Positions 15,778 to 62,117 of a stretch of DNA of 64,000 nucleotides are shown here, in pieces. The DNA comes from Oscillatoria sp. SIO1A7 (lineage in GTDB: Bacteria > Cyanobacteriota > Cyanobacteriia > Cyanobacteriales > Laspinemataceae): NCBI GenBank assembly GCA_010672965.1, contig JAAHFN010000005.1:233847-297846 (forward strand), in the 5' to 3' direction. The stretch's first letter is position 1, and each line of letters opens with the position of its first letter. The notes beneath the pieces were generated by a model, which saw only the letters and a program-made list of their open reading frames with translations, made no database searches and was not told the DNA's origin. Position numbers and translations under genes: made by a program.

Positions 15778-16014
15778 TTAGCGGACCCGCAGGAGACCTA
15801 AGCCCAGCAATCCTTGGACCGCTTTGATACATTGTTCGATCGTTAGCTTGCAGTCCCGAGCCATATCGCTGTAGGTGCGCCCTTTCAAGGTACGGGCGAG
15901 CCAGCCAAACACCAAAATTTCCTCACGGGTCAGGCGGCGGCGGCCTTCGGGATTGCTGTCAGTGTTGATTGTCAAGTTGTCCAAGTTATCCAACGACGAA
16001 GGAAAGCTGTTCAT
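15778..16014 (-). CDS. DCKL-family small HTH-like protein (78 aa)
   Basis: A 78-residue protein, one of five paralogues in the window. Family pattern: a short N-terminus, a segment NxDSNPEGRRRLTREEI, a helix VFGWLARTLKGRTYSDMARDCKLT, and a final helix-turn IEQCIKAVQGLLGLGLLRVR. The LTREE...YSDMARDCKLTIEQC spacing looks like a GerE/sigma-4 or winged HTH, so DNA binding is inferred. It has its own promoter (16082-16109), a GC-hairpin leader (16046-16069) and 3' hairpins. I do not recognise a published family. Confidence 0.78.
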   Translation of the reverse strand: MNSFPSSLDNLDNLTINTDSNPEGRRRLTREEILVFGWLARTLKGRTYSDMARDCKLTIEQCIKAVQGLLGLGLLRVR

Positions 16015-16069: not shown

Positions 16070-16081
16070 TGTCTTATCCTT

Positions 16082-16109
16082 ACTATAACATCATTTTTTA
16101 GATTGTCAA
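16082..16109 (-). promoter_or_regulatory. sigma-70-type promoter of the 78-residue gene
   Basis: On the minus strand: TTGACA, 16-bp spacer ATCTAAAAAATGATGT, TATAGT. The spacer length and the central A-run are shared by all five DCKL genes. Confidence 0.75.
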
Positions 16110-20914: not shown

Positions 20915-20935
20915 AAAAAAAAGGGCTCGGAGCCC
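20915..20935 (-). terminator. intrinsic terminator of the DCKL gene at 20955
   Basis: Minus strand: GGGCTCCGAGCCC followed by eight T residues, 20 bases after the stop codon. Confidence 0.8.
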
Positions 20936-20954: not shown

Positions 20955-21221
20955 TTAGCGCGATTGCGCAGAGCGCACGCTGCGCGATCGCGCAGAGCGC
21001 AGTATGCCCAAGTCAATTAGCTCTTGGATAATTTCCTCGCAGCGCTCAAAGCTCTCTAACTTGCAGTCTTTCATTAGCTTCTGGTAGGTGCGTTTCTCCT
21101 GGTAAAAGGAAAGCCATGCGAGAGTGAAGCATTTATCGCGTTCGAGTAAGCGATGGTTTTCGGGGTCGCTGTTAGGGTCGATTTCGAGGCTATTTAAGAA
21201 ACTGTTAAATTTATCGGTCAT
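20955..21221 (-). CDS. DCKL-family small HTH-like protein (88 aa), cassette A
   Basis: 88 residues from ATG 21221, chosen because this start and the preceding ATATCCAAA are conserved with the paralogue at 61851; the 11 upstream residues are not. It reads FLNSLEIDPNSDPENHRLL, then TLAWLSF...RTYQKLMKDCKLESFERCEEIIQELIDLGIL, a probable winged or simple HTH, then a basic tail RSARSRSVRSAQSR encoded by a HIP1-like palindrome. It shares about 89% identity with the gene at 61851. It is divergent from the 89-residue gene at 22644 across the repeat block. Function unknown; DNA binding inferred. Confidence 0.8.
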   Translation of the reverse strand: MTDKFNSFLNSLEIDPNSDPENHRLLERDKCFTLAWLSFYQEKRTYQKLMKDCKLESFERCEEIIQELIDLGILRSARSRSVRSAQSR

Positions 21222-21270: not shown

Positions 21271-21316
21271 GCTTGGCGAGAGGGAGCCTTATGCTAATTT
21301 TGTCCGCCATACGATT

Positions 21317-21344
21317 AATATAACACTTATTTTTAAATTGTCAA
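21317..21344 (-). promoter_or_regulatory. sigma-70-type promoter of the 88-residue gene
   Basis: Minus strand: TTGACA, 16-bp spacer ATTTAAAAATAAGTGT, TATATT. Confidence 0.78.
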
Positions 21345-21379: not shown

Positions 21380-22260
21380 ATTTTGAAATCGAAGCGAGGT
21401 TTTTCTCAAGCGCTGTTTTCCCGAACAAAAGCGATCGCAGCAATCTCGTTTCATCCTTCTCAACAGCTACATCCGCTACATCAGTTACCTATCCGCTGCC
21501 AATCTGTTTTTCCGAAGAAGAGCGATCGCAGCAATCTCATTTCATCCTTCTCAACAGCTACATCCGCTACCAATCCGCTGCCAACGCTTCATCCGTTACA
21601 TCCGTTACCAATCCGCTGCCAACATTTCATCCTTCTCAACAGCTACATCCGCTACATCCGTTACCTATCCGCTGCCAATCTGTTTTCCCGAAGAAGAGCG
21701 ATCGCAGCAATCTCATTTCATCCTTCTCAACAGCTACATCCGCTACCAATCCGCTGCCAACGCTTCATCCGTTACATCCGTTACCAATCCGCTGCCAACA
21801 TTTCATCCTTCTCAACAGCTACATCCGCTATATCCAAATTCAAAATTCTCAAGCGCTCGAACTCAAAACTCAAAACTCAAACAAGCCGGGGGCGAAGCGG
21901 TCCGCTCGCTCGGCCTCTGTTTTATTTTCAAACAAGCCGGCGATCGCTCCTCAACAGCTACATCCGCGTTAATCCGTTACCTATCCGCTGCCAAACAAGC
22001 CGGGGGCGAAGCGGTCCGCTCGCTCCACCTCTGTTTTATTTTCAAACAAGCCGGCGATCGCTCCTCAACCGATACATCCGCGTCAATCCGTTACCTATCC
22101 GCTGCCAAACAAGCCGGGGGCGAAGCGGTCCGCTCGCTCGGCCTCTGTTTTATTTTCAAACAAGCCGGCGATCGCTCAATTCAAAATTCAAAACTCAAAT
22201 CTCAAAACTCAAAACGCCCGGTCCGTCGCCGCGTCCGGTCCGTCGCTCCGGCTATTTTAT
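21380..22260. repeat. interspersed repeat array, cassette A
   Basis: Built from at least three unit types: CATCCGTTACCTATCCGCTGCC; GCGATCGCAGCAATCTCATTT with TCATCCTTCTCAACAGCTAC; and AAGCCGGGGGCGAAGCGGTCC with CTGTTTTATTTTCAAACAAG. Units are shuffled, not strictly tandem. The long frame through it is produced by repeats and has an unlikely Ser/Arg/Tyr/Pro composition. The same unit types in inverse order and orientation fill 60480-61560. Confidence 0.82.
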
Positions 22261-22560
22261 ACTAAAGATAAGTATTTTGCAAAATAAACTATCTTGTCCG
22301 TGTTTTATTAGCGCAAGTTTTTTTTACAAGGGCAAATTGCCAAGCTTAAATGCTTTAATTAATTGCGCTTTTAGCCGCGATTAAAAGCAGTTTGCTGGCA
22401 AAAACTTATGCTGCAAGACTGAAGCAAGACAGCTAAAAGTATTGCAATTAAAGGGCTACAAGAACTTAAAGTGCTATAAATTTAGTCCGTAAGTCCGTTT
22501 TTGCTAACAAACTACATCGCCGTAAAGCCGAAATATTTTTCAAAAATTTTCCAAAAAACT
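22261..22560. other. AT-rich block upstream of the 89-residue gene, conserved in both cassettes
   Basis: It holds a hairpin ACTAAAGATAAGTATTTT..., GAAGCAAGACAGCTAAAA and AGTGCTATAA. The equivalent block in cassette B (60195-60480, other strand) keeps these islands but is otherwise clearly diverged. No frame is conserved. It may be regulatory or a non-coding RNA. Confidence 0.5.
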
Positions 22561-22561
22561 G

Positions 22562-22589
22562 TTGACATTTTAAAAATAGTTGCTATAAT
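22562..22589 (+). promoter_or_regulatory. sigma-70-type promoter of the 89-residue gene, cassette A
   Basis: TTGACA (22562-22567), 16-bp spacer TTTTAAAAATAGTTGC, TATAAT (22584-22589). Near-consensus. Confidence 0.82.
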
Positions 22590-22599
22590 AGGAGTAACC

Positions 22600-22625
22600 A
22601 AAAAAAAAGGGGCTTTACGCCCCCC
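22600..22625. promoter_or_regulatory. leader hairpin / opposing terminator
   Basis: An A-tract then GGGGCTTTACGCCCC in the leader; on the minus strand this is a hairpin followed by a T-tract. Confidence 0.62.
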
Positions 22626-22643
22626 AAACAAAGGAAAAATAAA

Positions 22644-22913
22644 ATGATAATGAACCCGCCAGATCCCCCAACCCCCCCAACTCCCCCGGACCCTTCTGAA
22701 TGGCTCTTAGACCATCTAGAGATCAATCCCAATAGTACCAGGGAAGGCCGCCGTAGCCTCACGCGCATTGAGATCTTTGTCCTGGGTTGGTTCGTCTTTA
22801 ACAATAAGGGCCGCCGCTACGCCAATATGGCAAGGGACTGCAAGCTAACCGTCCCAGAGTGCCGAACCGCAGTGATGGCACTCGTTCAAGAGGACATAAT
22901 CCGCCTGAGCTAA
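22644..22913 (+). CDS. DCKL-family small HTH-like protein (89 aa), cassette A
   Basis: 89 residues with AAAGGA upstream of the ATG. The N-terminus is a Pro-rich stretch (NPPDPPTPPTPPDP), followed by the family domain: HLEINPNSTREGRRSLTRIEIFVLGW, then RRYANMARDCKLTVPECRTAVMALVQEDIIRL. A copy at 59841-60110 encodes the identical protein; the two DNA copies differ at five positions, all synonymous. This is direct evidence that the protein is under purifying selection. It has its own promoter, leader hairpin and terminator. Function unknown; the LTRIE...MARDCKLTVPEC pattern suggests an HTH. Confidence 0.85.
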   Translation: MIMNPPDPPTPPTPPDPSEWLLDHLEINPNSTREGRRSLTRIEIFVLGWFVFNNKGRRYANMARDCKLTVPECRTAVMALVQEDIIRLS

Positions 22914-22942
22914 CCCGCGCGCTTCCGGTACGCATTTTGCCT

Positions 22943-22969
22943 GGACTCCCCCGAGGAGTCCTTTTTTTT
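22943..22969 (+). terminator. intrinsic terminator
   Basis: GGACTCCCCCGAGGAGTCC followed by eight T residues. The 3' UTR (CGCGCGCTTCCGGTACGCAT) and the hairpin are nearly identical in cassette B. Confidence 0.9.
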
Positions 22970-23029
22970 GCGGAATTCTCTCATTCAAAATTAAAAATTA
23001 TTTTGAACCGCTGCAAAATTCAATAGCCT

Positions 23030-56736: not shown

Positions 56737-57675
56737 TCAAAACTTCTCACGGGCTAGGTAACGGCGATGGTCTTCCCAACTTTTGAGCAATATGCCGGGA
56801 AAGGGGAGTTTGCCTTCGAGTTTTTCCAGAATCTCATCTTCGGGATGGCGGCGCAGGATATCTATCCAGTCAATCAGTTCGCTGGTGCTGACCTTTTTGC
56901 CCGCATTGCCTTTCTGCTGCTGCATTTCCCGGCGCAATTTCAGAAAGCGAGCTACTGCTTTTTTCTGCAATTCTTGGGAAATGGTCGGAAACATGGCTCG
57001 GACAATACTGCCCAAGCGCTTTTCTTCGGGAAACTCGACATAGTGAAACAAGCAGCGGCGCAAAAAAGCATCGGGCAAAGCTTTCTCGTCGTTGCTGGTA
57101 ATCAAAACAATCGGCGGGGCTTTGGCTCGAACTTCCCGGCGAGGCCGAGTTTCTTCTATAAAAAACCGGCGCTCGTCTAGTTCTAGCAACAAGTCGTTGG
57201 GAAAATCGATATCGGCTTTGTCGATTTCGTCAATTAGCACCACCGTGCGGCGATCGCTCAGAAAAGCATTTCCCAAAGGTCCCCATTCAATGTAAGTAGC
57301 GGGATCTCTAATCTGCTCCAGATCTTCATTGGCAGGCAAAGATTTCGCCGCCGCCAGTTGTGCGTCTCGCAAGCGTCCCACCGTGTCATATATATAGAGT
57401 CCATCTCGGGCTCGGCTCGTCGATTTGACATACCAGGCTTCAAAAGGAAGCTCCAGTTCGTAGGCCACAGCCCGAGCCAATTTGGTTTTCCCGCATCCCG
57501 GTTCCCCCTTGAGCAGCAACGGCCGTTCGAGCTGAATCGCCAGATTGACTGCTTCTACCAAATCTCGATCGGGAAAATAGGGATAAAGCGGCTGTCCGCT
57601 AGGATCGAATTTCCCCGGCTGCGGTTGCACTTCGCCAGTATATTCCAGCCTCTCGTTGCTCAGAATTTCAGCCAT
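56737..57675 (-). CDS. MoxR-family AAA+ ATPase
   Basis: About 312 residues from ATG 57675 (MAEILSNERLEYTGE), overlapping the end of the trypsin gene by about 16 bases. Walker A GEPGCGKTKLARA, Walker B VVLIDEIDKADIDFP, sensor 1 LITSNDEKALPDAFLRRC. It pairs with the downstream vWA-like protein, the usual MoxR-vWA functional unit, here in a conflict context. Confidence 0.92.
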   Translation of the reverse strand: MAEILSNERLEYTGEVQPQPGKFDPSGQPLYPYFPDRDLVEAVNLAIQLERPLLLKGEPGCGKTKLARAVAYELELPFEAWYVKSTSRARDGLYIYDTVGRLRDAQLAAAKSLPANEDLEQIRDPATYIEWGPLGNAFLSDRRTVVLIDEIDKADIDFPNDLLLELDERRFFIEETRPRREVRAKAPPIVLITSNDEKALPDAFLRRCLFHYVEFPEEKRLGSIVRAMFPTISQELQKKAVARFLKLRREMQQQKGNAGKKVSTSELIDWIDILRRHPEDEILEKLEGKLPFPGILLKSWEDHRRYLAREKF

Positions 57676-59021
57676 TTCTCCGATTCCCCATACCAATCAA
57701 TATCGCAAAGATGACAAATTTCTTCTAGGGTAAGCTCTGGAATGCCCCCGTCGCTGTTATAGATAATCTCCTCCACCACCCGTTCCATTTCTTCGCTGAG
57801 TTCGGCAGGCATCTCGTCTTCCATCCAGTCAGTCAATTCGCTATCGGAAAATTTAGTAAGCTTCGGCACCTCGATCGGCGTGTAAGGTTGCCAGCTCGCA
57901 TCCATTTTGTCGATTTTGTCGGTCAAGGGCACGTCCCAACTGGCAGTAATTCCCTGGTAATCTACCAAAAACATTAGCAACTTATAGGGAATGGCTTCAA
58001 CCTGGGAGTCTCGCACTTTCGTCGCCAAGGGCAGCCAAAAGTCCTGGATAAGCTGCTCTAAGCCCTTTGGCGGCAAGCAGTCCACGTCGTGGAAAATCAA
58101 AAGTATATCCTGACTTTGCCACCATTGATAGACTCGCTCGACGATCGCTCTCGGAACGCGCTCTTTTCCCCGCAAGCCAACCCAACTGCCCAACTCGCGC
58201 CACAGGGCATCGACATCGTTTTTGCGAACCTTCCGAGCCAGGTTTATTTTAACTGGTTTGCCCCTGAAACAGTCGGGAACATGCTGCACTAAAAGCCGAT
58301 TTAGCAACCAGCGCTGTCCGTAACTGGGCAACCCGTGGATTAAGAAACCGGCTACGGAATGCTTGCCAATTAATTTTCGGAATAAGCGCACTTGCTGCCG
58401 ATAGCCCAATTTTAATAAATTGTGGTAGAGGCGATCGCTATCTACAATCTGACAAATACGATCCAGCGCCTTAATGCAAATGGCCAAGCCACGTTTGCCG
58501 TCTTGTTGTCTCTGAATGACTACAGCGATAACATTGCCGCTATCTGGGTCAACTACTGGAGAGCCGCTATAACCACGCTTGAGAGCATAGTCCTGAATTT
58601 GTAAATCCCAGGCTTGAATTCGGTCTAAACCCCTAGACTGCAAGCCAACGCGATCGCCGAGGGTTACTCGCAAAGATCTAATTAAGTGCTTATCGTCAAG
58701 CACTTGGAATCCAGCAGTAATAAAAGAACTACCTTGATTCCCAGTTCCCAGCAAATTTAGCGCTGGCATCTCAAACAGCCCGTCAACTCTCAAGACTGCC
58801 AAATCTAGTCCGTTTTCGTCTCCAGTCGCCACCACCGTTACCGGGCGATCGCCAATCTTAACTTTATCTCTTCCACCCACATCTCGGACTACATGGGCGC
58901 AAGTCAGTATATAGACACTGCCTCTGTTTTGCCTAAAGACAAAACCAGTGCCAAAATCGTTGTTTTTTTGTTCGCTGCTGGATATTAATACCAACGACTG
59001 CTGTAATTCTTCCGGCGTCAT
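57660..59021 (-). CDS. trypsin-like protease fused to a degenerate STAND-like domain
   Basis: 453 residues. The trypsin domain at 1-190 has a complete triad: His in ILTCAHVVRDV, Asp in GLDLAVLRV, Ser in RGYSGSPV (GYSGSP instead of GNSGGP). The C-terminal part (190-453) has a degenerate P-loop VAGFLIHGLPSYGQRWLLNRLL with no Walker Lys-Ser/Thr and a Walker-B-like DILLIFHDVD; this matches the inactive STAND domains described in vWA-MoxR/trypsin conflict systems. It probably cleaves a system partner or target on sensing. Confidence 0.85.
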   Translation of the reverse strand: MTPEELQQSLVLISSSEQKNNDFGTGFVFRQNRGSVYILTCAHVVRDVGGRDKVKIGDRPVTVVATGDENGLDLAVLRVDGLFEMPALNLLGTGNQGSSFITAGFQVLDDKHLIRSLRVTLGDRVGLQSRGLDRIQAWDLQIQDYALKRGYSGSPVVDPDSGNVIAVVIQRQQDGKRGLAICIKALDRICQIVDSDRLYHNLLKLGYRQQVRLFRKLIGKHSVAGFLIHGLPSYGQRWLLNRLLVQHVPDCFRGKPVKINLARKVRKNDVDALWRELGSWVGLRGKERVPRAIVERVYQWWQSQDILLIFHDVDCLPPKGLEQLIQDFWLPLATKVRDSQVEAIPYKLLMFLVDYQGITASWDVPLTDKIDKMDASWQPYTPIEVPKLTKFSDSELTDWMEDEMPAELSEEMERVVEEIIYNSDGGIPELTLEEICHLCDIDWYGESEKWLKF

Positions 59022-59193
59022 ACAGTATTAGTTTAATTTTTTACTGCGGTTTTGTAGCGATCGCTCAGAGTCCTGCCAACGATCTAATTTTTGTTAGTAA
59101 AGCCGCCAAGGCATTATGTATCTCAGCTTAGCACAATTAACGCGCTGCCTTACAATAGCTTATTGGCTAGAGACGGCGGCTTTACATTCTCGG

Positions 59194-59517
59194 TCATTTT
59201 TTAGGTGTTAATACCAATTTAACCTTGATATTAGCAGCACCCTTTGACTTAGTTACATAGAGATTGCCCTCTCCTTCAAAGCTGAATCCCAGATCCACTT
59301 CTGCCCGCTCGATATCCGCTTCTTGACCCAGTTCTTGGCGCAGGTCTTTCCAAGCCTCTACAACAGGGCGGCAAGTTTTAAGGAGTAGGGGTCTAATTTG
59401 AGCAAAGGTTGCATCCACCCGCTTGGCTAAGCGCCCAGAAATTTCCTCAAATTGGTCTTCTCGAACTTCTACCTCTACCAAAGTTTCGTCGTCTAATTCG
59501 ATCAATTGGGTTCGCAT
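59194..59517 (-). CDS. Trypco1 (CU044_2847-like) domain protein
   Basis: A 107-residue beta-rich protein: RTQLIELDDETLVEVEVRED, a central helix VEAWKDLRQEL, then ERAEVDLGFSFEGEGNLYVTKSKGAANIKVKLVLTP. The strand pattern VDLGFSF...GN(L)Y(V)TKS...NIKVKL matches trypsin-co-occurring domain 1, a small domain usually next to trypsin genes in conflict systems. It is the first gene of the operon, 172 bp before the trypsin gene. Confidence 0.85.
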   Translation of the reverse strand: MRTQLIELDDETLVEVEVREDQFEEISGRLAKRVDATFAQIRPLLLKTCRPVVEAWKDLRQELGQEADIERAEVDLGFSFEGEGNLYVTKSKGAANIKVKLVLTPKK

Positions 59518-59840
59518 CGCTGTTTCCTCTGTAGATAGACTTCCCTAACCAAAATAACCATAGCTGGCTTACGGTAGTGCAATGGACGGCTAGAGATATT
59601 GGGTTACAGCTTAAATATATGCCAGAAACCCCAGGAAGCGGCGATCGCCCCTTCCCGCCGCTTCGTAGGACGGGCGGGACGCCTGTCCCTCCCGCCCGTC
59701 CTACGGTTCGCGCACATCGGACAGGCGAGACGCCCGTCCTACGGTTACCTATATCTGGTATATCTGGTAAGGGTCAACGGCCGCCAAAAAAAAGGACTCC
59801 TCGGGGAGTCCAGGCAAAATGCGTACCGGAAGCGCGCGGG
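59518..59840. repeat. intergenic repeats and terminator
   Basis: GTAGGACGGGCGGGACGCC palindromes at 59664-59745. At 59786-59811 is the terminator of the 89-residue gene (minus strand: GGACTCCCCGAGGAGTCC plus T-tract). Confidence 0.75.
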
Positions 59841-60110
59841 TTAGCTCAGGCGAATTATGTCCTCTTGAACGAGTGCCATCACTGCGGTCCGGCACTCTGG
59901 GACAGTTAGCTTGCAGTCCCTTGCCATATTGGCGTAGCGGCGGCCCTTATTGTTAAAGACGAACCAACCCAGGACAAAGATCTCAATGCGCGTCAGGCTA
60001 CGGCGGCCTTCCCTGGTACTATTGGGATTGATCTCTAGATGGTCTAAGAGCCATTCAGAAGGGTCCGGGGGAGTTGGAGGGGTTGGGGGATCTGGCGGGT
60101 TCATTATCAT
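59841..60110 (-). CDS. DCKL-family small HTH-like protein (89 aa), cassette B
   Basis: Identical in protein to the 89-residue gene at 22644. The DNA differs at five positions (Pro, Leu, Thr, Arg and Ile codons), every change synonymous. AAGGA precedes the ATG. Promoter at 60166-60193, leader hairpin at 60130-60154, terminator at 59786-59811. It is divergent from the gene at 61851 across the repeat array. Function unknown. Confidence 0.85.
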   Translation of the reverse strand: MIMNPPDPPTPPTPPDPSEWLLDHLEINPNSTREGRRSLTRIEIFVLGWFVFNNKGRRYANMARDCKLTVPECRTAVMALVQEDIIRLS

Positions 60111-60129: not shown

Positions 60130-60154
60130 GGGGGCGTCAAGCCCCTTTTTTTTT
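60130..60154. promoter_or_regulatory. leader hairpin / opposing terminator
   Basis: GGGGGCGTCAAGCCCC then a nine-T tract on the plus strand, in the leader of the minus-strand 89-residue gene. Confidence 0.65.
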
Positions 60155-60165
60155 GGCTTCCTCCT

Positions 60166-60193
60166 ATTATAGCAATTATTTTTAAAACGTCAA
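60166..60193 (-). promoter_or_regulatory. promoter of the 89-residue gene, cassette B
   Basis: Minus strand: TTGACG, 16-bp spacer TTTTAAAAATAATTGC, TATAAT. Confidence 0.8.
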
Positions 60194-60480: not shown

Positions 60481-61680
60481 TTTGCCGGAGCGACGGTCCG
60501 GGCGCGGCGACGAGGCGGACCGCTTCGCCCCCGGCTTGGCGACGGTCCGGGCGCGGCGACGAGGCGGTCCGCTTCGCCCCCGGCTTGGCGACGGTCCGGG
60601 CGCGGCGACGAGGCGGACCGCTTCGCCCCGGCTTGTTTGAAAATAAAACAGAGGTGGATAAGCGGACCGCCTCGCCCCCGGCTTGTTTGAAAATAAAACA
60701 GAGGTGGATAAGCGGACCGCCTCGCCCCCGGCTTGTTTGAAAATAAAACAGAGGTGGATAAGCGGGCCGCTTCGCCCCCGGCTTGTTTGAAAATAAAACA
60801 GAGGTGGATAAGCGGACCGCTTCGCCGCCGGTCTGTTTGAAAATAAAACAGAGGTGGATAAGCGGACCGCTTCGCCGCCGGTCTGTTTGAAAATAAAACA
60901 GAGGTGGATAAGCGGACCGCTTCGCCGCCGGTCTGTTTGAGTTTTGAATTAGAGCGGTTTCGGACGATCGCTCTTGAAGTTAAAAAATAAAACAGAGAAT
61001 GAAACGTTGGCAGCGGATAGGTAACGGATGTAACGGATGTAGTGTTGGCAGCGGATTGATAAGGATGAAATGAGATTGCTGCGATCGCTTTTGTTGGGAA
61101 AAAAACAGAAACGTTGGCAGCGGATAGGTAACGGATGTAACGGATGTAACGGATGTGGCGGTTGAAATGAGATTGCTGCGATCGCTCTTCTTCAAAAAAA
61201 AATAGCGGACGAGAAAGGTGTCTGGGGCGAAGCATCCCAATACGGTAATTACCGTTACACAGCCGAGATTGTCCAAGGGATGCTGTCGCCCCTACGTTTA
61301 TTTTATTACACTTATTTGAGAAAGTCAGCCCTCCGGGCTTAGTCTGTGTAGCCGCGCCTTTAGGCGTCAGGCGGCTGCGTGCTGCGGATTAACGCGGATG
61401 TAATGGATGTGGCGGTTGAAATGAGATTGCTGCGATCGCTTTTGTTGGGAAAAAAACAGAAACGTTGGCAGCGGATAGGTAACGGATGTAACGGATGTAG
61501 TGTTGGCAGCGGATTGATAAGGATGAAATGAGATTGCTGCGATCGCACCGCATTCAAAAAAAAACAGCGGATGAAAAAGTCAGCCCGGAGGGCTTAGTCT
61601 GTGTAGCCGCGCCAGCCGCCTGGGAGGCGGGGCTTACGCCTATAGGCGTCAGGCGGCTGCGTGCTAAACCTCACAAAAAG
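60481..61680. repeat. interspersed repeat array, cassette B
   Basis: Starts with three 49-bp units (GACGGTCCGGGCGCGGCGAC), then seven 50-bp units anchored on GTTTGAAAATAAAACAGAGG at 60635, 60685, 60735, 60785, 60835, 60885 and 60935. Then come inverted copies of the cassette-A units (GGCAGCGGATAGGTAACGG, GAAATGAGATTGCTGCGATC). Two fragments of the MITE GC core lie at 61327-61380 and 61577-61664. Periods of 49 and 50 bp are not multiples of three, so the long frame is an artefact. Confidence 0.85.
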
Positions 61681-61719: not shown

Positions 61720-61747
61720 TTGACAACTTAAAAATAAGAGCTATATT
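61720..61747 (+). promoter_or_regulatory. promoter of the 88-residue gene, cassette B
   Basis: TTGACA (61720), 16-bp spacer ACTTAAAAATAAGAGC, TATATT (61742). Followed by an A-tract and AGAGCTAACTTGCCCTG at 61800-61825, matching the cassette-A leader. Confidence 0.78.
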
Positions 61748-61850
61748 AATCATATGGCGTTCAAAAGGACAAGATTAGCCTTTGGCTCCCTCTCGCCAAG
61801 AAAAAAAAAGAGCTAACTTGCCCTGTTATAATCTAAAAAATAAATCCAAA

Positions 61851-62117
61851 ATGACCAATCGTTTTAACAGGTTCCTAAATAGCCTCGAAATCGACCCGAA
61901 TAGCGACCCCGAAAACCATCGCTTACTCGATCGCGATAAGTGCTTCACTCTGGCATGGCTTTCCTTTAACCGGAAGAAACGCACCTACCAGAAGTTAATG
62001 AAAGACTGCAAGTTAGAGAGCTTTGAGCGCTGCGAGGAAATTATCCAAGAGCTAATTGACTTGCGCATACTGCGAACCGCGCGGTCGCGCAGCGTGCGCG
62101 GAGCGCGATCGCGCTAA
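61851..62117 (+). CDS. DCKL-family small HTH-like protein (88 aa), cassette B
   Basis: 88 residues from ATG 61851 (after AAATCCAAA, as in cassette A). About ten differences from the paralogue at 20955-21221 (for instance GIL to RIL, FYQEK to FNRKK). The core FLNSLEIDPNSDPENHRLL and RTYQKLMKDCKLESFERCEEIIQELIDL is identical. The basic tail RTARSRSVRGARSR again comes from a HIP1-like palindrome. No clear terminator. It is 480 bp upstream of the sigma factor on the same strand. Confidence 0.8.
   Translation: MTNRFNRFLNSLEIDPNSDPENHRLLDRDKCFTLAWLSFNRKKRTYQKLMKDCKLESFERCEEIIQELIDLRILRTARSRSVRGARSR

Follow-up and report, generated by a model that had tools for sequence, protein, structure and literature searches.

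Two genes in the window (the whole stretch of DNA analyzed, 64,000 nucleotides of Oscillatoria sp. SIO1A7) encode the same 89-residue protein and differ only silently, yet the DNA directly upstream of them has diverged widely. We think it likely, with a probability of roughly 0.6, that the pair sits in related cassettes of ~2 kb within a family of ~50 units and that the contrast reflects selection, faster upstream drift, and occasional exchange, with DNA binding by the proteins and spread of the units as presumed parts of the picture. A family of one-gene units has expanded in the host's genome lineage, and the pair (P0001 and its copy) are paralogues in two related cassettes. Each unit would be transcribed into a short mRNA, starting from an extended −10 promoter close to consensus; its leader hairpin would double as an antisense terminator, its gene would encode a small winged-helix protein, and its own terminator would end it. 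The contrast would then have three sources: purifying selection that, after cassette duplication, maintains the protein as well as the 3′UTR and terminator; AT-rich, repeat-rich upstream DNA that drifts faster; and ectopic exchange, which occasionally takes place among cassettes and probably also renewed the tract from coding sequence to terminator in cassettes 1 and 2. We infer that the proteins bind DNA, most likely at or close to the promoter that the family shares, in auto- or cross-regulation.

The pair belongs to two of four paralogous ~2-kb cassettes, each made of two divergent units around a tandem-repeat spacer and set in unrelated surroundings. Cassettes 1 and 2 lie in the window together with a third, stand-alone family unit (C128 is the window's contig):

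20915..20935, minus strand: terminator of the cassette 1 partner, at the left cassette end and homology boundary
20958..21221, minus strand: divergent partner gene of cassette 1, a distant family member (88 aa from an internal ATG)
21316..21344, minus strand: predicted promoter of the cassette 1 partner (family promoter pattern, promoter scan)
21413..22177, no strand: tandem-repeat spacer between the divergent units of cassette 1 (repeat analysis)
22562..22589, plus strand: predicted promoter of the P0001 unit, cassette 1 (TTGACA-16-TATAAT with TG before the −10; 12 of 12 consensus positions in the scan; fits the family promoter pattern)
22601..22627, plus strand: leader A9 run and GC hairpin, cassette 1 (opposite strand an intrinsic terminator, stem 22625-22607; found in most family units)
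22644..22913, plus strand: P0001, the 89-aa winged-helix-like gene of cassette 1 (translation, family search, AlphaFold2 model)
22914..22970, plus strand: 3′UTR and intrinsic terminator, cassette 1 (stem 22943-22961, T8; conserved between cassettes; homology end)
59786..59840, minus strand: 3′UTR and terminator of the second copy, cassette 2 (comparison with cassette 1)
59841..60110, minus strand: second copy of the 89-aa gene, cassette 2 (translation, family search)
60131..60154, minus strand: leader hairpin and A-run, cassette 2
60165..60193, minus strand: predicted promoter of the P0001 unit, cassette 2 (family promoter pattern, C128:294011-294039)
60490..60940, no strand: tandem-repeat spacer, cassette 2 (49-50 bp units)
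61720..61748, plus strand: predicted promoter of the cassette 2 partner (family promoter pattern, C128:295566-295594)
61851..62114, plus strand: divergent partner gene, cassette 2 (family searches)
15778..16014, minus strand: third family unit in the window, stand-alone, 78 aa (one of five ~490-bp unit copies)
16081..16109, minus strand: predicted promoter of the stand-alone unit (family promoter pattern, C128:249927-249955)

The spacers at 21413-22177 and 60490-60940 consist of high-identity tandem repeats (units of 176, 114, 49, and 50 bp), and repeat units common to cassettes 2 and 3 are 93–96% identical. Adjoining cassette 2, at 56740-59517 on the minus strand, genes for an AAA ATPase, a trypsin-like peptidase with an inactive STAND domain, and a Trypco1 domain stand in a row that resembles a biological-conflict operon.

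We compared positions 22644-22913 with the reverse complement of 59841-60110. As the preliminary description had it, 5 of 270 bases differ, all at third positions and all silently (codons 11 CCC/CCT, 39 CTC/CTG, 69 ACC/ACT, 74 CGA/CGG, and 86 ATC/ATT), and both 270-bp frames translate to an identical 89-residue protein. The probability that five random substitutions would all be silent is ~0.0016. The diverged, indel-bearing upstream blocks that it reported were also found, at ~25% divergence between cassettes 1 and 2 over 22262-22535; segment by segment, the promoter region differs by 12%, the 5′UTR by 16%, and the coding sequence by 1.9%. That the flanks have diverged far more than the gene is true on the upstream side but not downstream, where the noncoding 3′UTR and terminator (22914-22970, 57 bp) are conserved like the gene, with one indel and 0 substitutions. 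The near-identical tract opens with the ATG and not with the start of transcription, leaving promoter and 5′UTR outside, and similarity ends abruptly just past the T-run of the terminator.

Strong selection on the protein, one of two causes proposed in that description, is supported. All close intact family pairs are under purifying selection, with dN/dS of 0.04–0.3 in most: 0.14–0.22 for the other pairs of the four-member P0001 clade, 0.04 for the C150 pair, and 0.08–0.30 for a five-member group. The partner genes are less constrained (0.31–0.77). For the P0001 pair itself, NG86 dN/dS is 0 at a dS of 0.086; at this dS, an omega of 0.17 predicts three replacements, and the probability of seeing none is ~0.05. 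Since purifying selection acts in all close intact pairs, the silent-only pair is not exceptional: it is mildly unusual and an ordinary product of such selection, possibly with gene conversion. Moreover, the gene-versus-flank contrast is common to all four cassettes, and so a difference in rate accounts for much of it.

Purifying selection and this rate difference might even suffice by themselves, with cassettes 1 and 2 as the latest-separated pair, a constrained coding sequence and terminator, unconstrained upstream DNA, and no conversion. We regard this simpler explanation as tenable, if short of an even chance. The omega values within the same clade are in its favor, as is a coding dS that is lower than upstream divergence for each pair of cassettes. 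When only third positions are counted, the contrast between coding and upstream DNA lacks significance (p=0.14), and by BIC a single proportional tree is the better model. It sits poorly with the way in which the closeness of cassettes 1 and 2 changes along their length. Relative to other cassette pairs, their distance is 0.72 upstream (CI 0.53–0.91) and 1.09 in the promoter/5′UTR but 0.25 in the coding sequence (CI 0.05–0.47) and 0 in the 3′UTR, where other pairs have 3–8 substitutions. Conflicting trees from other cassette segments also speak against it.

In quartet comparisons, the partner promoter/5′UTR favored 13|24 (dL 8; AU p <0.05 against both alternatives), the partner 3′UTR, with 29 columns only, favored 14|23 (dL 16; AU p <0.05 against both alternatives), and the P0001 coding sequence favored 12|34 (dL 6; AU p 0.04 against each alternative). 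The cassettes are mosaic in this sense, and exchange among the copies therefore occurs, a conclusion that these sequence comparisons support. A more specific proposal is that gene conversion copied the tract from coding sequence to terminator between cassettes 1 and 2 and that the five silent changes came later. The data hint at such an event, but we consider it rather unlikely. The 12|34 tree of the coding sequence, with other trees elsewhere, favors it, as does a Fisher test on polymorphic sites that singled out the cassette 1–2 pair only (p=7.6e-5, a value inflated by rate heterogeneity and saturation). Unlinked branch lengths fit better than proportional ones (2dlnL=10.4, 4 df, p about 0.03), with an AIC better by 2.4 and a BIC worse by 15. 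However, the five silent changes occur all along the gene and leave no identical core, and power is low with a 3′UTR of 57 bp and, separately, 19 polymorphic third positions. A GENECONV-like run test was set aside, having picked an upstream stretch and not the gene (p 0.02). Gene conversion, the second cause originally put forward, has moderate support: the coding ratio and the conflicting trees argue for it, the third positions alone show no significant contrast, and the likelihood ratio test is marginal. Its supposed limitation to the transcribed unit does not hold; the 5′UTR was not homogenized, and the signal of exchange is clearest elsewhere in the cassettes.

It is very improbable that the 89-aa unit is mobile and was reinserted or replaced as a unit in one of these two cassettes: other members do occur as discrete copies of ~470–500 bp at unrelated sites, but cassettes 1 and 2 remain homologous without interruption across the promoter and for 300 bp upstream, and no separate insertion need be invoked here. 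For other members of the family, movement of single units has more to recommend it. Five of them, including the stand-alone unit at 15778-16014, have a common block of ~490 bp (82–91% identity), and their flanks, compared over up to 2.5 kb each way, show no collinear similarity. At a dS as low as 0.10 (C1:207944 versus C79:69399), co-duplicated flanks should still be recognizable, which argues that the unit itself moved or was copied. The units may have spread as insulated expression cassettes. The marks of a transposon or MITE were absent: no flanking direct repeat of at least 5 bp was present in 7 of 8 copies checked, no target-site duplication or terminal inverted repeats were seen, and clustering of 328 neighboring ORFs gave no recurrent transposase neighbor.

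Units are self-contained and ordered alike, with an extended −10 sigma70-type promoter, an A-run and GC hairpin, a gene of ~75–89 aa, and a terminator of their own. The predicted promoter, present in 40 members, reads TTGACA-N16-TATAnT; a TG stands ahead of the −10, and the spacer has a conserved TAAAAA. With at most two mismatches, the pattern TTGACAANNTAAAAANNNNTGNTATANTA has 40 matches in the genome and 0 in a reversed control; 39 of the 40 precede family members, and the remaining one heads a gene-less remnant. In the relatives, it was limited to scattered single two-mismatch matches in 7 of 58, comparable to control. This apparent remnant, at C7:8553-8581, has the family promoter and leader hairpin but no gene; a TATAGC-type repeat, TATAGCGTTTCTC, follows directly in the gene's place. 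Downstream of the promoter, most units carry an A-rich run and GC hairpin whose opposite strand is a consensus intrinsic terminator. On the alignment used, covariation in this hairpin was not above that of shuffles, and its assignment accordingly comes from its presence and the A-run only; within the window, it had no Rfam match at the gathering threshold. The gene is followed by an intrinsic terminator similar in design to that of the leader. ATTATA comes after 16 of 29 family terminators versus 5 of 62 others, a comparison whose p-value is optimistic given that members are related. After about half of the family terminators, ATTATA(GC) and abundant short repeats starting with TATAGC are found.

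AlphaFold2 models of two members (window-only alignments) had pLDDT values of 85.4 and 85.9 and elements E-H-H-H-H-E, a winged-helix-like order. They contain the three-helix HTH core and the strands in winged-helix order of that structural class, with the wing reduced to one strand. The nearest PDB chains are winged helices of the Lrp/AsnC, MarR, and CodY type, at middling scores (Z about 7; Foldseek E >0.1), and VIA-align to Lrp/MarR-type domains gave Z 6–7 with an rmsd of 1.7–2 over about 50 residues. No Pfam model passed its cut-off: the best E values, 0.0029 (HTH_36) and 0.0027 (MarR_2), came from 2–3 of 25 members, one member scored 14.8 bits against the 25-bit cut-off of HTH_36, and DnaD_N was also subthreshold. 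Searches of Pfam, PHROGs, NCBIfam, PADLOC, and PDB sequences returned weak generic HTH matches or nothing. Weak matches to PADLOC WH_III-A in 12 of 25 members (best E 0.0015) likely reflect generic winged-helix similarity. As in Lrp/AsnC, MarR, the CodY C-terminal domain, HTH_36, and MarR_2, a three-helix core, a recognition helix, and a terminal strand are predicted; unlike Lrp/AsnC, MarR, and CodY, the proteins are only 75–89 aa long, have no effector or dimer domain and a reduced wing, and fall below curated cut-offs. Across the family, the core is conserved, whereas variability is among the highest at positions 59, 63, and 64 of the presumed recognition helix. A role as DNA-binding regulators is suggested by two features only, the fold and the promoter exclusive to the family, and from the models we would expect the proteins to bind DNA as small regulators.

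The 9.08-Mb genome contains ~50 family members (49 matches to a single query sequence, 51 to a profile), with a mean identity of 41% among 27 nonredundant members. Profile searches outside the genome were scored on the best candidates per genome, in a sample without a genus mate of the host. No family relative was found in the genomes of 58 relatives, in 292 further genomes sampled from the order, in 385 other sampled genomes across the phylum (profile, E≤0.001; also with a second member as query), or in phage, plasmid, or viral-contig collections. As far as sampled, the family is restricted to its lineage; literature searches gave no description of such a family. Weak phylum-wide profile matches (E 0.01–0.05, some with stops) were judged to be chance, and a match in a WOR-3 MAG was an unrelated 181-aa ORF, OmpA C-terminal-like by eye, the NSTREGR peptide being common by chance.

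Homogenization of dispersed bacterial paralogues is known from tuf (tufA/tufB) and, in cyanobacteria, from psbA and psbD (PMC6053082). Like those genes, the P0001 pair combines near-identical coding sequences of dispersed paralogues with diverged flanks; unlike them, its copies sit within paralogous cassettes and belong to a family that is large and diverged, and conversion is moderately supported, as seen from one genome alone. The discrete ~490-bp units at unrelated sites (88–91% identity), decayed copies among them, recall MITE or REP-like elements. The gene that they carry, however, is intact, under selection, and equipped with a promoter and terminator of its own, and we found neither terminal inverted repeats nor target duplications nor a link to a transposase. 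The silent-difference pair is itself ordinary and is useful mainly as the way into an orphan family whose ~50 members are insulated winged-helix units of one gene each. It is rare for a bacterium to have dozens of copies of a single tiny gene that is strongly promoted, apparently regulatory, and absent from sampled relatives. If the units did spread as insulated one-gene cassettes, they would represent a route by which a new regulator family can arise and multiply without a transposase. A bolder version, which we hold to be improbable, has a lineage-restricted unit dispersed over ~50 sites without transposon hallmarks, proteins that act on the shared promoter as one large self-regulating network, and coding tracts partly homogenized by exchange.

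Five members are decayed (C98:90681, C128:316940, C106:49919, C112:2025, and C134:31695), with an internal stop, a split frame, or a C terminus that has given way to repeat-encoded residues, the pattern of a birth-and-death family. The same genome has 57 TPS-domain and 78 CHAT-domain matches. Of 49 members, 12 have such a gene within 5 kb (5.5 expected, p 0.002), but the excess is not significant within 1.5 or 2.5 kb, and we therefore claim no linkage. Frequent sites of the HIP1 sequence, GCGATCGC, suggest a cyanobacterial genome.
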